This document shows, piece by piece, positions 27,669 through 34,495 of a stretch of DNA of 64,000 bases. Source of the DNA: Citromicrobium sp. JLT1363 (GTDB lineage Bacteria > Pseudomonadota > Alphaproteobacteria > Sphingomonadales > Sphingomonadaceae); the NCBI RefSeq assembly GCF_000186705.1, contig NZ_AEUE01000006.1, positions 248,001-312,000 of the forward strand, written 5' to 3'. A model generated the notes under the pieces. The model worked only from the letters and a program-made list of their open reading frames with translations, did no database searches and had not been told where the DNA came from. The first letter of the stretch is position 1; each line of letters begins with the position of its first letter. Both the position numbers and the translations under genes were made by a program.

Positions 27669-30600
27669 TCAATGAAAGTCGCGCGATTTCGGAATGATCC
27701 GCAGATTGCGCGGATGGCCACCCGTGTTGGGCAGTTCGTCAATCAGGTCGCGCGGGCGGATCGCGCTTTCGTGGGCGGGGTCTTCTGCTCCCGATCGCAG
27801 GTCGTCGCGCGGGTTGATCTTGTTGGAAGGCAGCGGCGAATTGACGTGGTCGGCGCGCGCCAGCTGGTATTGCAGCGTCTCGTCGGACAGGCGCGAGAGC
27901 ATATGGCTCGCATCGGTCATGTGGTGCGCGATGACATGGATCACCTCGTCGTCGTACTCCACCCGCCCGCGCACCTCCATCAGCCGCGCCCCCATCACCA
28001 CCTTGCGCTGCTTTTCCTTGAGGTCCGGCCACACGACCAGGTTCACCACCCCCGTCTCGTCCTCCAGCGTGATGAAGCAAACGCCCTTGGCGCTGCCCGG
28101 CCGCTGGCGGATCAGCACCACGCCTGCGACCTGCACCATGGAGCGGAACTTGCGTGTCCGCAGGTCGCAGGCGCGCACGAAGCCGCGCTGCGCCAGATCG
28201 GCGCGCAGAAAGGTCATCGGATGCGCCTTCAGGCTGAGCCGGGTGGTCTGGTAGTCGGCGACCACTTCTTCGCTGAGCGGCATGACGGGCAGCGCGGTGC
28301 GCGCCTTTTCCGCCCCCTCGTCGCGCTCGTCCGCCGCGCGGAACAGCGGCAGGTCGGGCGAGGCGATCAGGCTGCGTGCGTCCCACAGTGCCTGGCGCCG
28401 CGGCAGGCCGAGCGACTGGAAGGCGTCGGCACTGGCGAGCCGCTCGATATGCGAGGGAGCAAGCCTCGCACGGTCGCGTAGTTCCGCGACATCGCGATAG
28501 GGCCCGTTTTCGACCCGCTCCGCCACCAGCTTGGCCGCGACATGCTCAGGGAAACCGTCGATCTGGCGCAGACCAAGGCGCAGGGCCATGGGCTGGTCGA
28601 GGCGGGCCTTGTCCTCGCCCACCCACCCCGTTGCAGCTAGGCTCGCCTCCGGCTCGCCAAGCTTCACTCCCCTCCCGCAAGCGGGAGGGCTAACGAGACT
28701 TGCGTCGACATCGTCGGCGCTAGTCGCAGTGGGGTGGGCCTGTGACAGTTGGAATTCCTCCAACGTACAATCCCAGTCGGACCCATTAACATCCGCCGGC
28801 AGCACCGCGACCCCGTGCTCGGCCGCGTCGCGCACGATCTGAGCGGGTGCATAGAAGCCCATCGGCTGCGAGTTGAGCAGCGCGCAGGCGAAGGCCGCCG
28901 GGTAGTGGCACTTGAGCCAGCTGGAAACGTAGACGAGGTGTGCAAAACTGGCCGCGTGGCTCTCGGGAAAACCGTACTCCCCGAAGCCCTTGATCTGGTC
29001 GAAGCAGCGCTGGGAGAAATCGGGGTCGTAGCCACGCTCTATCATGCGCCCGACCATCATTTCCTCGTGCGCGTGCACCATTCCCCGGCTGCGGAACGTG
29101 GCCATCGCCCGGCGCAGGCGATTGGCCTCCGCCGGAGAGAACTTGGCTGCATCGATGGCGATCTTCATCGCCTGTTCCTGAAAGATCGGCACACCGAAAG
29201 TGCGCCCGAGGATCGAGGAAAGCTCGTCGGACGGGCCATGCTCGGGCGCGGGCGCAGGGAGCTGAAAATCGGTCTTTCCAGCGCGCGCCAACCGCCTCTG
29301 CTTGAGATAGGGGTGAACCATATCGCCCTGGATCGGACCGGGCCGAACGATCGCAACCTGCACCACCAGATCGTAGAATTGGCGCGGTTGCAGACGCGGC
29401 AGCATGTTCATTTGCGCCCTGCTCTCGACCTGGAACACGCCGAGCGAGTCACCCTTGCACAGCATGTCGTAAACCGCCGGATCTTCCTGGGGGACGGTGG
29501 CAAGCGTCAGCGGCCGGTCGTAGTGGTCTTCAAGCAGGTCGAGGCCCTTGCGAATGCAGGTCAGCATCCCGAGCGCGAGCACATCGACCTTGAAGATGCC
29601 AAGATCGTCGATGTCGTCCTTGTCCCATTCGATGAAACTGCGGTCGGGCATTGCGCCATTGCCGATCGGCACGGTCTCGGTCAGCAATCCGTCGGTGAGG
29701 ATGAAACCACCGACATGCTGGCTAAGATGCCGTGGCATTCCAATCATTTGCTGCGTGAGTTTGAGAACTCGCTTCAGGTGCGGATCGGCAATATCCATGC
29801 CCGTTTCCGCCACGTGATCCTCGCCGATCTCCCGGCCCCAGCCACCCCATACGGTACGCGCGAGCGACGCGGTGACGTCTTCCGACAGGCCCATTGCCTT
29901 GCCCACCTCGCGGATTGCCATGCGGGGGCGATAGTGGATGACGGTGGCGCACAAGCCGGCGCGATCCCGTCCATACTCCCTGTAAATGTGCTGGATGACT
30001 TCCTCACGCCGTTCATGCTCGAAATCGACATCGATATCGGGCGGCTCGCTGCGCTCTTCGGAAAGAAACCGGTCGAACAACAACTGGTGCTCGGCAGGAT
30101 CGACGCTGGTTATGCCGAGACAGAAACATACGGCGGAATTGGCTGCGCTGCCCCGGCCCTGGCACAGGATCGGAGGCGTCTGGCTACGCGCGAAATCGAC
30201 GATTTCCTTGATGGTGAGGAAATAGGGGGCCAGATCGAGCTTGCCGATCAGCTCCAGCTCATACTCAAGCGTGGCCTTAACTTTATCCGGTATAATATTG
30301 GAATAACGCCATTTTGCGCCATCCCACGTCTGACGCTCCAGATATTGCTGCGGGGTCATGCCATCGGGATAGGCGCGCCTTGGATACTCGTATTGCAGCT
30401 CGTCGAGGCTGAAGCGGCAGGCATCCGCGATGGCGCGTGACGCCATGATGGCATGGGGCCAGCGCGCGAACAGGCGGACCATCTCTTCGGGCGATTTCAG
30501 GTGCCGTTCGGCATTGGCGTGGAGCAGGTGCCCCGCGGCCTCCACGGTCGTCTTGTGGAGGATTGCCGTCATGACGTCATTGAGCGGACGGCGTTCTGGG

Positions 30601-31400
30601 GCGTGGTAATGCACGTCGTTGGTGGCGAGCAGCGTGAGGTTGTGCGCCCGCGCCATGGCGTCGAGCCGGTCGAGCCGGGCAATATCGTCGCCGCGATAGA
30701 GATAGGCGGCGGCAAGGTGGCGCAGCGTCGGCAATTGCGCAGTCAGATGCGGGAGGAGCTTGGGAAAGGGAGCCCTCAGTTCAACTCTTTCGTCACCCCG
30801 GCCTCCGGGCCGGGGTCCCGCTTCTTCTGCGTCGATGCCGAAAGAAAGGCGGGATCCCGGATCAAGTCCGGGATGACGGAAGGGGATCACGTTGCTCGGC
30901 ACCGCAATCGTGAACCGCGCATCCAGATCGTCGGGCGGCAGCAGCACCAGTTGCACATCCTCGGCATGCTCGGCGAGCATCGCGAGGTCGATCTCGCATA
31001 CACCCTTCTCCTGCCATCCGCCCGAAAGCGTCTGCATCCGGCCCGCGCTGATCAGGCGGCACAGGCGCCCGTAGGCGGCCCGGTCCTTCGGGTAGGCGAG
31101 GAAGGCGAGGCCCTCGACAGTCTCGATCCGGCAGCCGATGACGGGCCGCAGCTTGAGCTTCTTTGCCTCGGTGTGAATGCGAACCACGCCCGCCATGCTG
31201 TTGGCATCGGCAATGCCGAGCGAGTCGTAGCCGAGAGCGCGCGCGGTCAGCACCAGATCGACCGCGTCCGAACTGCCGCGCAGGAAGCTGAAGCACGAGA
31301 CAAGCCCCAATTCGACGAAGGGAGCCCGGGGCGGCGGATCGACGTCATCGGGGTCGATTTCGATCCGGCGCTTGTCGGGAGTAAGCGGACCCTCAGGCAC
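27669..31400 (-). CDS. dnaE2: Error-prone DNA polymerase DnaE2 (ImuC) with two repeat-encoded insertions
   Basis: Translesion polymerase of the ImuA-ImuB-DnaE2 mutasome. 1243 residues, longer than the usual 1050-1160. The PHP-like N-terminus (VELGLVSCFSFLRGSS) lacks the metal-binding histidines, as in other DnaE2. Catalytic acids are in PDIDVDF (454-460) and FKVDVLALGML. ESHAASFAHLVYVSSWLK and the C-terminal OB part (VQVAGVVLIRQRPGSAKG) are typical. Residues about 174-204 and 888-926 are encoded by palindromic repeats that keep the frame open. GTG start at 31400, with GAGGG 7 bases upstream. Probably transcribed with udgX and the radical-SAM gene from the LexA box at 34340. Confidence 0.94.
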   Translation of the reverse strand: MPEGPLTPDKRRIEIDPDDVDPPPRAPFVELGLVSCFSFLRGSSDAVDLVLTARALGYDSLGIADANSMAGVVRIHTEAKKLKLRPVIGCRIETVEGLAFLAYPKDRAAYGRLCRLISAGRMQTLSGGWQEKGVCEIDLAMLAEHAEDVQLVLLPPDDLDARFTIAVPSNVIPFRHPGLDPGSRLSFGIDAEEAGPRPGGRGDERVELRAPFPKLLPHLTAQLPTLRHLAAAYLYRGDDIARLDRLDAMARAHNLTLLATNDVHYHAPERRPLNDVMTAILHKTTVEAAGHLLHANAERHLKSPEEMVRLFARWPHAIMASRAIADACRFSLDELQYEYPRRAYPDGMTPQQYLERQTWDGAKWRYSNIIPDKVKATLEYELELIGKLDLAPYFLTIKEIVDFARSQTPPILCQGRGSAANSAVCFCLGITSVDPAEHQLLFDRFLSEERSEPPDIDVDFEHERREEVIQHIYREYGRDRAGLCATVIHYRPRMAIREVGKAMGLSEDVTASLARTVWGGWGREIGEDHVAETGMDIADPHLKRVLKLTQQMIGMPRHLSQHVGGFILTDGLLTETVPIGNGAMPDRSFIEWDKDDIDDLGIFKVDVLALGMLTCIRKGLDLLEDHYDRPLTLATVPQEDPAVYDMLCKGDSLGVFQVESRAQMNMLPRLQPRQFYDLVVQVAIVRPGPIQGDMVHPYLKQRRLARAGKTDFQLPAPAPEHGPSDELSSILGRTFGVPIFQEQAMKIAIDAAKFSPAEANRLRRAMATFRSRGMVHAHEEMMVGRMIERGYDPDFSQRCFDQIKGFGEYGFPESHAASFAHLVYVSSWLKCHYPAAFACALLNSQPMGFYAPAQIVRDAAEHGVAVLPADVNGSDWDCTLEEFQLSQAHPTATSADDVDASLVSPPACGRGVKLGEPEASLAATGWVGEDKARLDQPMALRLGLRQIDGFPEHVAAKLVAERVENGPYRDVAELRDRARLAPSHIERLASADAFQSLGLPRRQALWDARSLIASPDLPLFRAADERDEGAEKARTALPVMPLSEEVVADYQTTRLSLKAHPMTFLRADLAQRGFVRACDLRTRKFRSMVQVAGVVLIRQRPGSAKGVCFITLEDETGVVNLVVWPDLKEKQRKVVMGARLMEVRGRVEYDDEVIHVIAHHMTDASHMLSRLSDETLQYQLARADHVNSPLPSNKINPRDDLRSGAEDPAHESAIRPRDLIDELPNTGGHPRNLRIIPKSRDFH
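28622..28738. repeat. 117-bp palindromic repeat inside dnaE2
   Basis: Outer arms CCCACCCC (28622-28629) and GGGGTGGG (28731-28738), each followed inward by a TTGCAGCTAG / CTAGTCGCAG-like arm, enclose an inner hairpin CCTCCCGC-AA-GCGGGAGG (28671-28688). The length is 39 codons, so the reading frame is kept. On the coding strand it gives the peptide about residues 888-926, including SLVSPPACGRGVKLGEPEAS, which has no counterpart in ordinary DnaE2. The hairpin is of a kind common in sphingomonad intergenic regions (from memory). Confidence 0.82.
30789..30882. repeat. Palindromic repeat inside the dnaE2 PHP region
   Basis: Two GC-rich hairpins about 30 bp apart: CCCCGGCC-TCC-GGGCCGGGG (30796-30815) and ATCCCGGATCAAGTCCGGGAT (30854-30874, with ATCCCGGA/TCCGGGAT arms). 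The ends TTCGTCA and TGACGGAA are nearly inverted. On the coding strand it reads FRHPGLDPGSRLSFGID and on to GGRGDE, at residues 174-204, between poorly conserved parts of the PHP domain. The unit belongs to the TCATCCCGG...CCGGGATGA class common between genes in alphaproteobacteria. Confidence 0.82.
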
Positions 31401-31414
31401 GGTCGCACCCTCGC

Positions 31415-31498
31415 GTCATCCCTGCGCAGGCAGGGATCCATCCACCCTCACCGATCGGCGAAAGGTTAGCTGGACCCCCGCCTTCGCAGGGGCGACGA
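31415..31498. repeat. Intergenic palindromic repeat, udgX-dnaE2 gap (copy 1)
   Basis: The left hairpin ATCCCTGCGCAGGCAGGGAT (31418-31437) and the right one CCCCCGCCTTCGCAGGGG (31475-31492) are joined by a linker holding GGTTAGCTGGA. It fills most of the 134-bp gap between udgX and dnaE2. The right half closely matches the element at 32998-33085, so both belong to one family. Its left end is about 15 bp from the dnaE2 start codon. Confidence 0.8.
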
Positions 31499-31534
31499 GT
31501 TGGCTTGCGGGGGCGACGAAAGAAATGGAATGGC

Positions 31535-32980
31535 TCATTGCCCGGCCAGCTCCGCCAACCGTGCACGCACTGCCGCGAGGTCGGCATCGAACAGCATGGC
31601 CTGCTTCTCGCGCGCATCGCCATCGAGCCGCAGCAGGTAGGACGGGTGCGCGGTGACCCACAGCTCGCTGCCATCATCCAGCGCAATGGCCTGCCCGCGG
31701 ACCTTGGAAATGCTCACCGTCTTGCCCAGCATCCCGCGCGCCGCGCTGGCGCCCATCGCCAGCACCAGCTTGGGCTTCACCAGCGCGCGCTCGCTCTCGA
31801 TCCACCAGCGGCAGGTGTCGATCTCCTTCGCGGTGGGCGACTGGTGCAGCCGCCTTTTGCCCCTCATTGTGAACTTGAAGTGCTTTACCGCATTGGTGAC
31901 GTAAGCCCGGCCACGGTCGATCCCCGCGCGTTCCAGATGCACGTCGAGCAATTGCCCGGCAGGCCCAACGAAGGGCCGCCCCTCCTGGTCCTCCTGATCG
32001 CCCGGCTGCTCGCCCACGATCATCAGGGCCGCATGCGTTTGCCCGTTCTGGGGCCCCTCGCCCATCACCGCGCGGTTGTCCAAACACCCGATCGGGCACT
32101 TGCGGCACGCTTGAATTGCCTCGCCGATCGCCTCCAGGCTTTCGGGTCGTACGCCGTCGTCGCGTTCGCCAGCTGCCACCATGGCGCTTTCGCGCTGCTG
32201 AGCACTCGCGATCAGCTCCGGGATGAGCGCGGCCTCGGGCAGGTTCTTCCAGTACTTGCGCGGCATTTCGGAGAGCATCGCGCCCACCTTCAGGCGCGCG
32301 GGATTGAAGATCGACGTGTAGTAGGTGCGCCACAGGTCCTCGACCGGATCGCCGTGCGGCGCGTCGGTCTTCTGCGCGGGCGGGCCTTCGCGCATAGTCT
32401 CGCCATCCCAGTGGAGCGTGCCCTGTGGCGTCAGGATCGACCAGCGCATGCTCGCGAACCGGCGCCGGAAGAAGCCCGCATTGGCGCGCAGGATGTGATG
32501 CTCGGGCTCGAACCAGGCAACGTAATGCTCGCCATCCTCTGCTTCGACCTGTCGGAAGCGGACGAAGGCGTGCATCTTGTGGCTGTCGCGCCGGACGTTC
32601 TTGTCGAGTTCCTCGACGCGGCCGACATCCGGATCGGCCTTGTCCTCCATGATCCGCGGATTGCGCTGGAGCCGCCAGAGCAGGCGATAGAGCAGCGTGA
32701 AACGCGCCGGATCGCGGTGCAGCGCGGCATTGCTCGCGAGGCTCAGGTAGCGCTTGCTCGCGCGGACCGGAGGGGCATCGGCGGGCGGCTCTGGCAGGCG
32801 CATGCCGCCGCTCGAAAAGAGATCGTCGGTCCCGCCCGGCTCGACCCACGCGATCTTGTCGGGCGGAATATCGCATTGAATCAGCGCCCGCGCGCGTTCG
32901 CGCCAGAAAGCGAAGTCGTCGCTGCGCGGCAGCTGGACGGTGTAATGCGCGTGGGGTTTGACTTGCTGGAGCGCGGTCAT
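31535..32980 (-). CDS. DUF4130 domain fused to UdgX-type uracil-DNA glycosylase
   Basis: 481 residues. The N-terminal half (about 1-250) is the DUF4130/TIGR03915 domain of unknown role. The C-terminal half is a family-4-like uracil-DNA glycosylase: iron-sulfur cysteines in CRKCPIGC (292-299), uracil pocket GEQPGDQED, TNAVKHFKF and AHPSYLLR. KRRLHQSP (375-382) is the UdgX R-loop; its His379 corresponds to the residue that in mycobacterial UdgX bonds covalently to the abasic site after uracil removal. GGAG lies 8 bases before the ATG at 32980. It lies between the radical-SAM gene and dnaE2, both on the same strand, in an apparent SOS operon. Confidence 0.92.
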   Translation of the reverse strand: MTALQQVKPHAHYTVQLPRSDDFAFWRERARALIQCDIPPDKIAWVEPGGTDDLFSSGGMRLPEPPADAPPVRASKRYLSLASNAALHRDPARFTLLYRLLWRLQRNPRIMEDKADPDVGRVEELDKNVRRDSHKMHAFVRFRQVEAEDGEHYVAWFEPEHHILRANAGFFRRRFASMRWSILTPQGTLHWDGETMREGPPAQKTDAPHGDPVEDLWRTYYTSIFNPARLKVGAMLSEMPRKYWKNLPEAALIPELIASAQQRESAMVAAGERDDGVRPESLEAIGEAIQACRKCPIGCLDNRAVMGEGPQNGQTHAALMIVGEQPGDQEDQEGRPFVGPAGQLLDVHLERAGIDRGRAYVTNAVKHFKFTMRGKRRLHQSPTAKEIDTCRWWIESERALVKPKLVLAMGASAARGMLGKTVSISKVRGQAIALDDGSELWVTAHPSYLLRLDGDAREKQAMLFDADLAAVRARLAELAGQ

Positions 32981-32997
32981 GACGCATGCTCCAAGCC

Positions 32998-33085
32998 CTC
33001 ACCCCCGCGCAGGCGGGGGTCCAGATAAGAGTGGTAGCACGAACCGGCGGTGTTAGCTGGGCCCCTGCTTTCGCAGGGGTGACGG
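32998..33085. repeat. Intergenic palindromic repeat, radical-SAM-udgX gap (copy 2)
   Basis: The left hairpin ACCCCCGCGCAGGCGGGGGT (33001-33020) and the right one CCCCTGCTTTCGCAGGGG (33062-33079) enclose a linker with GTTAGCTGG. It is the same family as the element at 31415-31498: the segment GTTAGCTGG followed by a C-run and TTCGCAGGGG is shared. It occupies most of the 115-bp gap between the two genes. Confidence 0.8.
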
Positions 33086-33095
33086 GAAATGATGG

Positions 33096-34337
33096 TCATG
33101 CCGCAAACAGCTCCAGCTGTTCCTGCTTGGGCGCGAGCAGGCTGCGCAGGTCCGCGCGGTCGGTCAGCAGCGTCGGGCGCCAGTCGACCGTGCAGATGAA
33201 AGGCCGCACCTTGGTGAGCGACACGGTCAGCCGCGCCACATCGTCCAATCGCAGCGTGCGGTGGCGGCGCGAGGCGAGGATGCGTTGCACCGCCTTTACC
33301 CCCAGCCCCGGCACGCGCAGCAGATCCTCGCGGCTCGCGCGGTTGACGTCGACCGGGAAGCGCTCGCGGAATTTCAGCGCCCAGGCCAGCTTAGGATCGA
33401 TGTCAAGCGGCAGGTTCCCGTCGACCCCGGTCGCCTGCATGATTTCCTGCGGGCGGTAATCGTAGAACCGCATCAGCCAGTCCGACTGGTAGAGCCGGTG
33501 TTCGCGGATCAGCGGCGGGCGCTTCAGCGGCAGCACGGCGCTGGCATCGGGGATCGGCGAGAAGGCGCTGTAATAGACGCGGCGCAGGCCGAAACTGTCG
33601 TACAGCCGGCTCGCCCGGCCCACGATATCCGCATCGCTCGCCGCGTCCGCGCCGACGATCATCTGGGTCGACTGGCCCGCCGGCGCGAAGCGCGGCGCGT
33701 GGCGAAAGCGCTTCTTCGCATCCTTCGCCTCGATAATATCGTCCTTGGTCTTGCCCAGCGCGCCCTCGATCTGGCGCGCGTCCTTGTCGGGCGCGAGGCG
33801 GGTCAGCCCGGCATCGGTCGGCAGTTCGACATTGATCGAGACCCGATCGGCATAGAATCCCGCGCGGTGGATGATCTCCGGGTCCGCCTCGGGAATGGTC
33901 TTGAGGTGGATATAGCCGCGAAAATCGTGCTCCTCGCGCAGGATCCGCGCGGCTTCCACGATCATCTCCATCGTGTGGTCCGAACTCTTGATGATGCCCG
34001 AGGAGAGGAACAGCCCCTCGATATAATTGCGGCGATAGAAGCTGAGCGTGAGGTCGGCGACTTCCTGCGGGGTGAAACGCGCGCGCCGCACGTTCGAGCT
34101 CTTGCGGTTGATGCAGTAGTGGCAATCGAAGATGCAGTGATTGGTCAGCAGGACCTTGAGCAGCGAGATGCACCGCCCGTCGGGCGCATAGGCGTGGCAG
34201 ATGCCCATCCCCTCGGTCGAGCCGATCCCGCCCTTCATGCTGTTGCGCCTGGTGGTGCCGGACGACGCGCAGGAAGCATCGTATTTCGCCGCATCGGCGA
34301 GGATCTTCAGCTTTTCGAGAATCGGCGGCCGGCTCAT
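33096..34337 (-). CDS. Radical-SAM putative DNA modification/repair protein (TIGR03916 type)
   Basis: 413 residues. A CX3CX2C cluster motif, CIFDCHYC (C68, C72, C75), binds the 4Fe-4S of radical SAM enzymes. It is preceded by the family-specific GGIGSTEGMGICHAYAPDGR. The C-terminus has a helix-hairpin-helix, VNRASREDLLRVPGLGVKAV, expected to bind DNA. The family (rSAM_link_UDG) is defined by linkage to DUF4130/UDG genes, exactly the neighbour here; its reaction is unknown. The ATG at 34337 stands 2 bases after a LexA box. A frame extending upstream to 34454 would place the operator inside the gene and is not favoured. Confidence 0.9.
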   Translation of the reverse strand: MSRPPILEKLKILADAAKYDASCASSGTTRRNSMKGGIGSTEGMGICHAYAPDGRCISLLKVLLTNHCIFDCHYCINRKSSNVRRARFTPQEVADLTLSFYRRNYIEGLFLSSGIIKSSDHTMEMIVEAARILREEHDFRGYIHLKTIPEADPEIIHRAGFYADRVSINVELPTDAGLTRLAPDKDARQIEGALGKTKDDIIEAKDAKKRFRHAPRFAPAGQSTQMIVGADAASDADIVGRASRLYDSFGLRRVYYSAFSPIPDASAVLPLKRPPLIREHRLYQSDWLMRFYDYRPQEIMQATGVDGNLPLDIDPKLAWALKFRERFPVDVNRASREDLLRVPGLGVKAVQRILASRRHRTLRLDDVARLTVSLTKVRPFICTVDWRPTLLTDRADLRSLLAPKQEQLELFAA

Positions 34338-34339
34338 AT

Positions 34340-34354
34340 GTTCTTTATATGTTC
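34340..34354 (-). promoter_or_regulatory. LexA box upstream of the radical-SAM gene
   Basis: GTTC-TTTATAT-GTTC fits the alphaproteobacterial SOS operator GTTC-N7-GTTC exactly. It ends 2 bases before the ATG at 34337, so repressor would cover the ribosome-site region and probably the promoter. It puts radical-SAM, udgX and probably dnaE2 under SOS control. Confidence 0.88.
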
Positions 34355-34495
34355 TTGCGCAGCTGCTGCCTAGCCCCTCGCCATCATGCGCAGAAAAAAT
34401 CTGCTTTTCAGAAGCTTGCAGACTTGTGCACAGGGGGAGGCCCAGCCTTGCCACGGGCAGGCGATGCGCGCATGATTGACGGGAGGAGAGGCATT

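Follow-up and report, generated by a model that had tools for sequence, protein, structure and literature searches.

The dnaE2 locus and its two in-frame repeats

The window (the whole stretch of 64,000 nucleotides analysed here, from Citromicrobium sp. JLT1363) carries on the minus strand the gene for DnaE2, a generally dispensable polymerase. The ORF was identified by family scan as an error-prone DNA polymerase (NCBIfam NF004225, 1357.5 bits against a cut-off of 939), and the scan placed two further genes upstream of dnaE2 on the same strand, one for a protein of the UdgX family and one for a radical SAM repair protein. At this locus (27669–34454) dnaE2 lies downstream of the UdgX and radical SAM repair genes and not of imuA/imuB, and the intergenic gap between the UdgX and radical SAM genes (32986–33095; translation LTPAQAGVQ...WAPAFAGVTGND) looks like a further dispersed palindromic repeat. 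The features considered below are as follows.

27669..31400, minus strand: dnaE2, error-prone DNA polymerase; ORF of 1243 aa with a GTG start as called mechanically
28596..28745, minus strand: site 2, a hypervariable loop of DnaE2 and insertion hotspot; residues 886–935 (GTG-start numbering), between CTLE and LRLGLRQI
28622..28738, minus strand: 117-bp palindromic element, family A, AHPTATSADDVDASLVSPPACGRGVKLGEPEASLAATGW; in frame as residues ~888–926, absent or replaced in relatives
28622..28640, plus strand: left outer arm (CCCACCCC...), from inverted-repeat analysis
28670..28689, plus strand: central core hairpin, CCCTCCCGC-AA-GCGGGAGGG, with a perfect 9-bp stem
28720..28738, plus strand: right outer arm (...GGGGTGGG), from inverted-repeat analysis
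30785..30885, minus strand: site 1, second in-frame palindromic repeat; element at residues ~172–206, hotspot at 175–205

The 117-bp element had been picked out in a sequence-only reading as a repeat with outer arms and an inner hairpin, and both are real, the stem of the hairpin being 9 bp. The outer arms (19 nt each) are 79 % complementary, and pairing is perfect over the outermost 8 bp (28617–28624/28732–28739) and in the inner hairpin (28670–28678/28681–28689). The 125 nt from 28618 to 28742 fold at −71.6 kcal/mol on the plus strand (z −6.8) and at −69.7 kcal/mol on the coding strand (z −4.2), a stability reached by none of 200 shuffles. Hence, the inverted-repeat structure is stronger than expected by chance, though its measured strength depends on the window chosen, since the same insert scored only z −2.6 when all inserts were scored together (coding strand, slightly different ends, 60 shuffles). 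The element begins at the second base of codon 888 and ends at the first base of codon 927, and the reading frame passes through it without a stop, leaving the dnaE2 ORF intact, so that it is read through in frame just before RLGLRQI, as had been claimed. A structured RNA family was considered for the repeats and rejected, as the region 28400–31000 has no Rfam match at the gathering score; a single sub-threshold match (19.7 bits against 50) falls on the site-1 element.

The site-1 element contains CGTCACCCC near its end, as do CGTC-type REPs, and is probably one of these, going by their description in the accessible parts of PMC3733652. It has 23 matches at about 14 places in its own genome, including a copy in glyS (G000:C21:197991–198080, L142; gene identity confirmed by family scan) that is in frame, in a different frame from that used in dnaE2, and folds with z −3.8. 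The two elements belong to distinct families, as originally proposed for the 117-bp element and the repeat at 30789, since neither is found in the other's own-genome match list.

There is no second copy of the full 117-bp element in its own genome. The 11 further matches at E ≤ 1 are to the 21-bp core or to weaker partial stretches, and the core region is matched exactly over 21 bp at two further places. In the absence of a full second copy at home, the mobility of this element is deduced from sister genomes.

Family A and the site-2 loop across the genus

Family A matches at E ≤ 0.001 were found in nine of the ten genomes of the genus, the genome of the window (G000) included. Matches to most of the element were confined to dnaE2, in G000, G005 (93 %) and G006 (81 %), and those elsewhere in the genus are limited to ~62–75 bp, made up of the core and one long half, or to the core by itself. 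The 27 loci examined (L013–L039) represent 20 distinct places. To judge from these matches, family A is a repeat dispersed through the genus, and its form in dnaE2 looks like an unusual two-sided version. None of the genus loci that were read outside dnaE2 showed two sides sharing a single core, so this form may have arisen by local rearrangement. Plasmids were considered as a vehicle and rejected; three Novosphingobium plasmids show partial matches.

The site-2 loop holds different DNA in different members of the genus: family A in three genomes (G000, G005 and G006), a different palindromic element, family B, in one (G004), a short hairpin-like stretch in four (G001, G002, G003 and G008) and no repeat in two (G007 and G009). 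The short stretch of G002 and G003, CCTCCCCGTGCCGGGGAGG, has exactly the sequence of one end of the G004 element. Family A was not matched in G004, nor family B in G000 or G005; both families were matched in six genomes (G001, G002, G003, G006, G007 and G008). A family B copy also lies immediately upstream of dnaE2 in G001 (G001:C1:571686–571771, the DnaE2 protein match starting at 571796).

In a tree built from 15 neighbouring genes (17,229 aligned bases), G004 groups with G000 and G005 (support 80/96) and G006 with G001, G002, G003 and G008 (100/100), and by a hand count on this tree the loop has changed at least three times through gain, loss or replacement. The dnaE2 tree, unlike the 15-gene tree, joins G006 to G007 (100/100), so gene transfer may be involved, and the presence of family A in G006 may reflect either shared ancestry or transfer. 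The 117-bp element is in frame, is absent or replaced in relatives and belongs to a family with partial copies in sister genomes. An old protein feature, present in all relatives with a conserved sequence, had been set against a mobile repeat in the sequence-only reading; on comparison the element proved to be neither present in all relatives nor conserved, and the mobile-repeat reading survives.

Core pairs have been lost in the G005 copy (by eye), and compensatory pairing between the G000 and G005 copies was looked for and rejected, several substitutions breaking pairs (by eye), so no RNA-structure constraint is claimed.

Two insertion sites in DnaE2 and controls in other genes

An alignment of 90 DnaE2 proteins (the ten of the genus and 80 named records, the best 80 of 585) was examined for inserts, defined as at least 15 aa between well-filled columns. 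Inserts were present in 34 sequences at alignment residues 179–211, in 27 at 890–941 and in 44 in the C-terminal tail (alignment numbers are the GTG-start numbers plus 5). Only two internal insert sites are therefore seen in the 90 proteins, and they are the positions of the two repeats in the window. None of the 18 records titled as Rhodobacterales-type or Oricola had an insert of at least 15 aa at either site. A fold z below −3 was obtained for 30 of the 61 internal inserts and for two of 244 length-matched control windows from the same genes (Fisher p 3e-22, with rows that are phylogenetically non-independent). The 30 strongly palindromic inserts come from 25 of the 90 proteins; in five of these, both sites are occupied. 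The other 31 inserts, among them the family A inserts of G000 and G005 (z −2.6 and −2.5), are not strongly palindromic, so that a repeat nature is demonstrated for some inserts and not for all. Clustering of 36 inserts (the 30 strongly palindromic ones and six added by hand) gave ten sequence groups, or nine once the hand-added L093 is left out. A further set of six DnaE2 from the family includes one with a CGTC-type site-1 insert (z −4.4), four without an insert and one with a long site-2 insert (z −4.2 for the whole and −0.9 for the piece first cut out). The G018 DnaE2 was left out of the counts, as the available sequence ends at the loop and an apparent truncation there results.

Copies elsewhere than dnaE2 were found for families A, B, C and E and for the L063 family (the own-genome search left out the inserts of L069, L087, L093, L100 and L112). 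Counting self matches and both strands, the L128 insert has 14 matches in its genome and family B has 26 in G004; the L063 insert has 68 (self included, most places on both strands), and other copies of its family are up to 97 % identical. The L084 insert was matched in five of the six genomes tried, the match in G029 being to its own dnaE2 only, with none in G032. Among 12 copies of the L063 family that were read, only that in dnaE2 is clearly inside a conserved gene. These families were chosen for their presence in dnaE2, so how often their copies fall inside genes is uninformative about dnaE2 itself, and the fairer tests are the control windows, DnaE1, UvrC and a set of 30 genes.

These data bear on the explanation that the insert is simply an old protein feature, a conserved disordered loop whose palindromy is incidental. 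A short non-repeat loop extension (GRLD-HIALRLG) is indeed common to many of the aligned DnaE2, as this explanation would have it, but the insert sequence is polymorphic within the genus, where some relatives lack the element altogether, the inserts are often palindromic beyond the controls, and several recur elsewhere. We consider it very improbable.

In the replicative polymerase DnaE1 of the same order (27 sequences, two of them partial) no insert was recognisable as a repeat. Loop extensions at the homologous loop are at most 16 aa, a 26-aa segment is found in G000, G004 and G005 and a 21-aa insert in one genome, and the five longest inserts or variant segments gave z values from −0.7 to 1.4. 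In UvrC (26 sequences aligned, three fragment loci, L296–L298, having been dropped) a single insert was found, in G009 (L015/L295), just before WPDLVLIDGGKGQ; it is a family A copy in frame, identified by sequence match, with an unexceptional coding-strand fold (z −1.0). Across 30 genes of the genus (12,547 aa, dnaE2 included), repeats replacing each other were seen in dnaE2 only, where they make up two variable blocks. Six of the other 29 genes contain nine blocks of at least 12 aa, several of which look like frame or wrong-strand artefacts, and two scored inserts from these six genes gave z −1.9 and 1.4. Hence, dnaE2 is unusual, though not alone, since glyS carries the site-1 repeat.

In-gene copies elsewhere were recognised by an open frame running across them together with third-position GC, dnaE2 and glyS being confirmed by family scan and uvrC by family search and alignment. 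Two other copies are seemingly in frame: one of family B (L243, in G007) in a gene that we take to be methyltransferase-like, and one of family E (L248, in G034) in a linker, presumably acyltransferase-like.

It could also be that the insertion machinery prefers the two places in dnaE2, with, for example, the hairpins of earlier elements serving as landing sites. Nested palindromes among the inserts (e.g. L084, L088, L094 and L106; by eye) would be expected on this account, as would the short hairpins at the loop in G001, G002, G003 and G008 and the similar hairpins that flank the larger element of G004. Against it, the families are also copied at many other places, with few copies in a coding-like spanning frame among the matches listed, and no shared target motif was apparent by eye in insert-free relatives; we regard such targeting as improbable. 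One of the nested cases, L106, is an Erythrobacter DnaE2 with 72 and 93 extra residues at sites 1 and 2, in which the nested palindromes belong to one sequence group.

Constraint on the insert, known repeat systems and interpretation

Between G000 and G006 the insert has dN 0.42 and dS 0.44, and the core of the protein dN 0.096 and dS 0.57. The G000 and G005 inserts differ by eight non-synonymous changes and one synonymous change (dN 0.095, dS 0.034), the corresponding core values being dN 0.017 and dS 0.24. On these comparisons, amino-acid constraint is seen in the rest of the protein but not in the inserted codons. Between G000 and G005, changes in the insert (about nine in 120 sites) are slower than simple neutrality predicts from the core synonymous differences (154 in 749.5).

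The length of the insert had been singled out as exactly 39 codons. This is not special, because an insertion that leaves its gene intact can only have a length divisible by three; it is a survivor effect. Outside dnaE2, 17 of 52 matched stretches from five families have such a length (nine of 17 for family A), which amounts to no general excess of multiples of three, these being BLAST match lengths and not proven element ends, and mean open-frame counts relative to shuffles were higher in two families, lower in one and about equal in two. Of the two interpretations offered at the outset, selection for frame-preserving insertion is not needed, since frame-shifting insertions would break the gene, and it is a locus prone to invasion that the data bear out, with several unrelated palindromic inserts at two internal loops that are polymorphic within the genus.

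A structural model of DnaE2 built with 26 sequences has a mean pLDDT of 63.7 and a pTM of 0.36, so only a local reading is safe. The insert (model residues 843–891; adding 43 gives protein numbering) has pLDDT below 50 and lies between predicted strands at 836–839 and 895–898, and site 1 (131–159) likewise has pLDDT below 50 and lies between strands at 119–125 and 162–168. In a fold comparison the model comes closest to DNA polymerase III alpha-type chains (TM-scores ~0.3), and in the alignment with Escherichia coli alpha (5fku_A) two aligned blocks are separated by 14 residues as against 68 in DnaE2. The insert models as a disordered tip between two strands and, on the predicted strands and this difference in spacing, both insertion sites are probably hairpin tips. 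The surface loop envisaged for the insert fits the low-confidence region between the strands, although the model as a whole is weak.

REPIN/BIME elements, which are associated with a RAYT transposase, are inverted pairs of short hairpins that occur in solo and paired forms. The repeats described here resemble them in having inverted hairpin pairs in solo and paired forms, and differ in that a RAYT-type transposase (Y1_Tnp, PF01797) was detected in none of the ten genomes of the genus (controls were positive in five of 14, including Caulobacter). A genome with RAYT-mobilised REPINs would be expected to encode such a Y1-type tyrosine transposase. No target-site duplication was evident by eye in the flanks of 12 L063-family copies or in the loop alleles of the genus.

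REPs inside DnaE2 and other repair genes were reported in 2013 (PMC3733652), in a study of mostly intergenic repeats whose accessible parts mention those in DnaE2 without giving a site. That study suggested that the repeats occupy neutral flexible loops, speculated about a mutator role and found REPs in genes of one functional category at different sites, except in recB of two Xanthomonas. The CGTC and GTAG REPs it describes resemble the present repeats in being short palindromes, some of them in genes, with DnaE2 named. The differences, as far as its accessible parts go, are that there are two families there and about nine sequence groups on two DnaE2 loops here, and that neither the CGTC nor the GTAG tag is present at the ends of the 117-bp element (CCCACCCC/GGGGTGGG; by reading the sequence).

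In-frame palindromic repeats are best known from Rickettsia, where the palindromic elements (RPE; Ogata 2000, 2002, via the accessible parts of the review PMC10969869) are ~150 bp long and encode a conserved peptide. RPE are found in frame inside unrelated conserved genes, and the 117-bp element also lies in frame inside a conserved gene. They differ in that frames vary here (the CGTC-type repeat in dnaE2 and glyS) and in that the RPE peptide is conserved, whereas the family A peptide appears unconstrained. Searches of titles and the beginnings of abstracts, mostly of papers outside subscription, found no other report of this convergence among the papers listed and no literature on in-frame palindromes in Novosphingobium. 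The new part is the convergence of many families on two fixed DnaE2 loops.

The best explanation for the 117-bp stretch is that it is a palindromic REP/MITE-like repeat in a beta-hairpin tip of DnaE2, and dnaE2 seems to have two spots that repeatedly collect mobile-looking DNA without the protein being broken. Quite probably, palindromic repeats land widely and the in-frame copies in two permissive DnaE2 loops survive. Elements of many families would insert at many places, and any that caused a frameshift, introduced a stop or fell in the folded core would be purged. Two exposed loops of a dispensable polymerase would tolerate almost anything in frame and, because of this tolerance, both would gain, swap and lose elements, sometimes one inside another.

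Another idea considered is that hairpin inserts persist for their effect on DnaE2, whose activity or translation they would reduce or change, thereby setting the mutation rate. According to the accessible parts of PMC3733652, DNA synthesis and repair are the business of many REP-tagged genes, and dnaE2 is hit repeatedly while DnaE1 is not; in addition, the coding strand of the 117-bp element itself folds well, and the insert has changed less between G000 and G005 than core synonymous sites. We nevertheless think such tuning unlikely, given that dN is close to dS in the inserted codons of G000 and G006, that the families and lengths of inserts are interchangeable, that by eye the G005 copy has lost core pairs and that in-frame copies also occur in glyS and uvrC. 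A broader version, in which the two loops are order-wide landing pads whose hairpins or extensions modulate how the polymerase is made or used, the repeats thereby tuning the mutation rate, has a similarly small chance of being right; if it were, selfish repeats would be tuning the mutation rate of their host.

On the preferred reading, survival of in-frame copies in permissive loops, two loops with about nine sequence groups amount to a natural, replicated experiment on the tolerance of a protein to insertion, and isogenic alleles would put to the test a question of longer standing, namely whether repeats in repair genes serve a function or are simply tolerated. Much of the internal length variation of DnaE2 seen here may be repeat DNA and not domain evolution.
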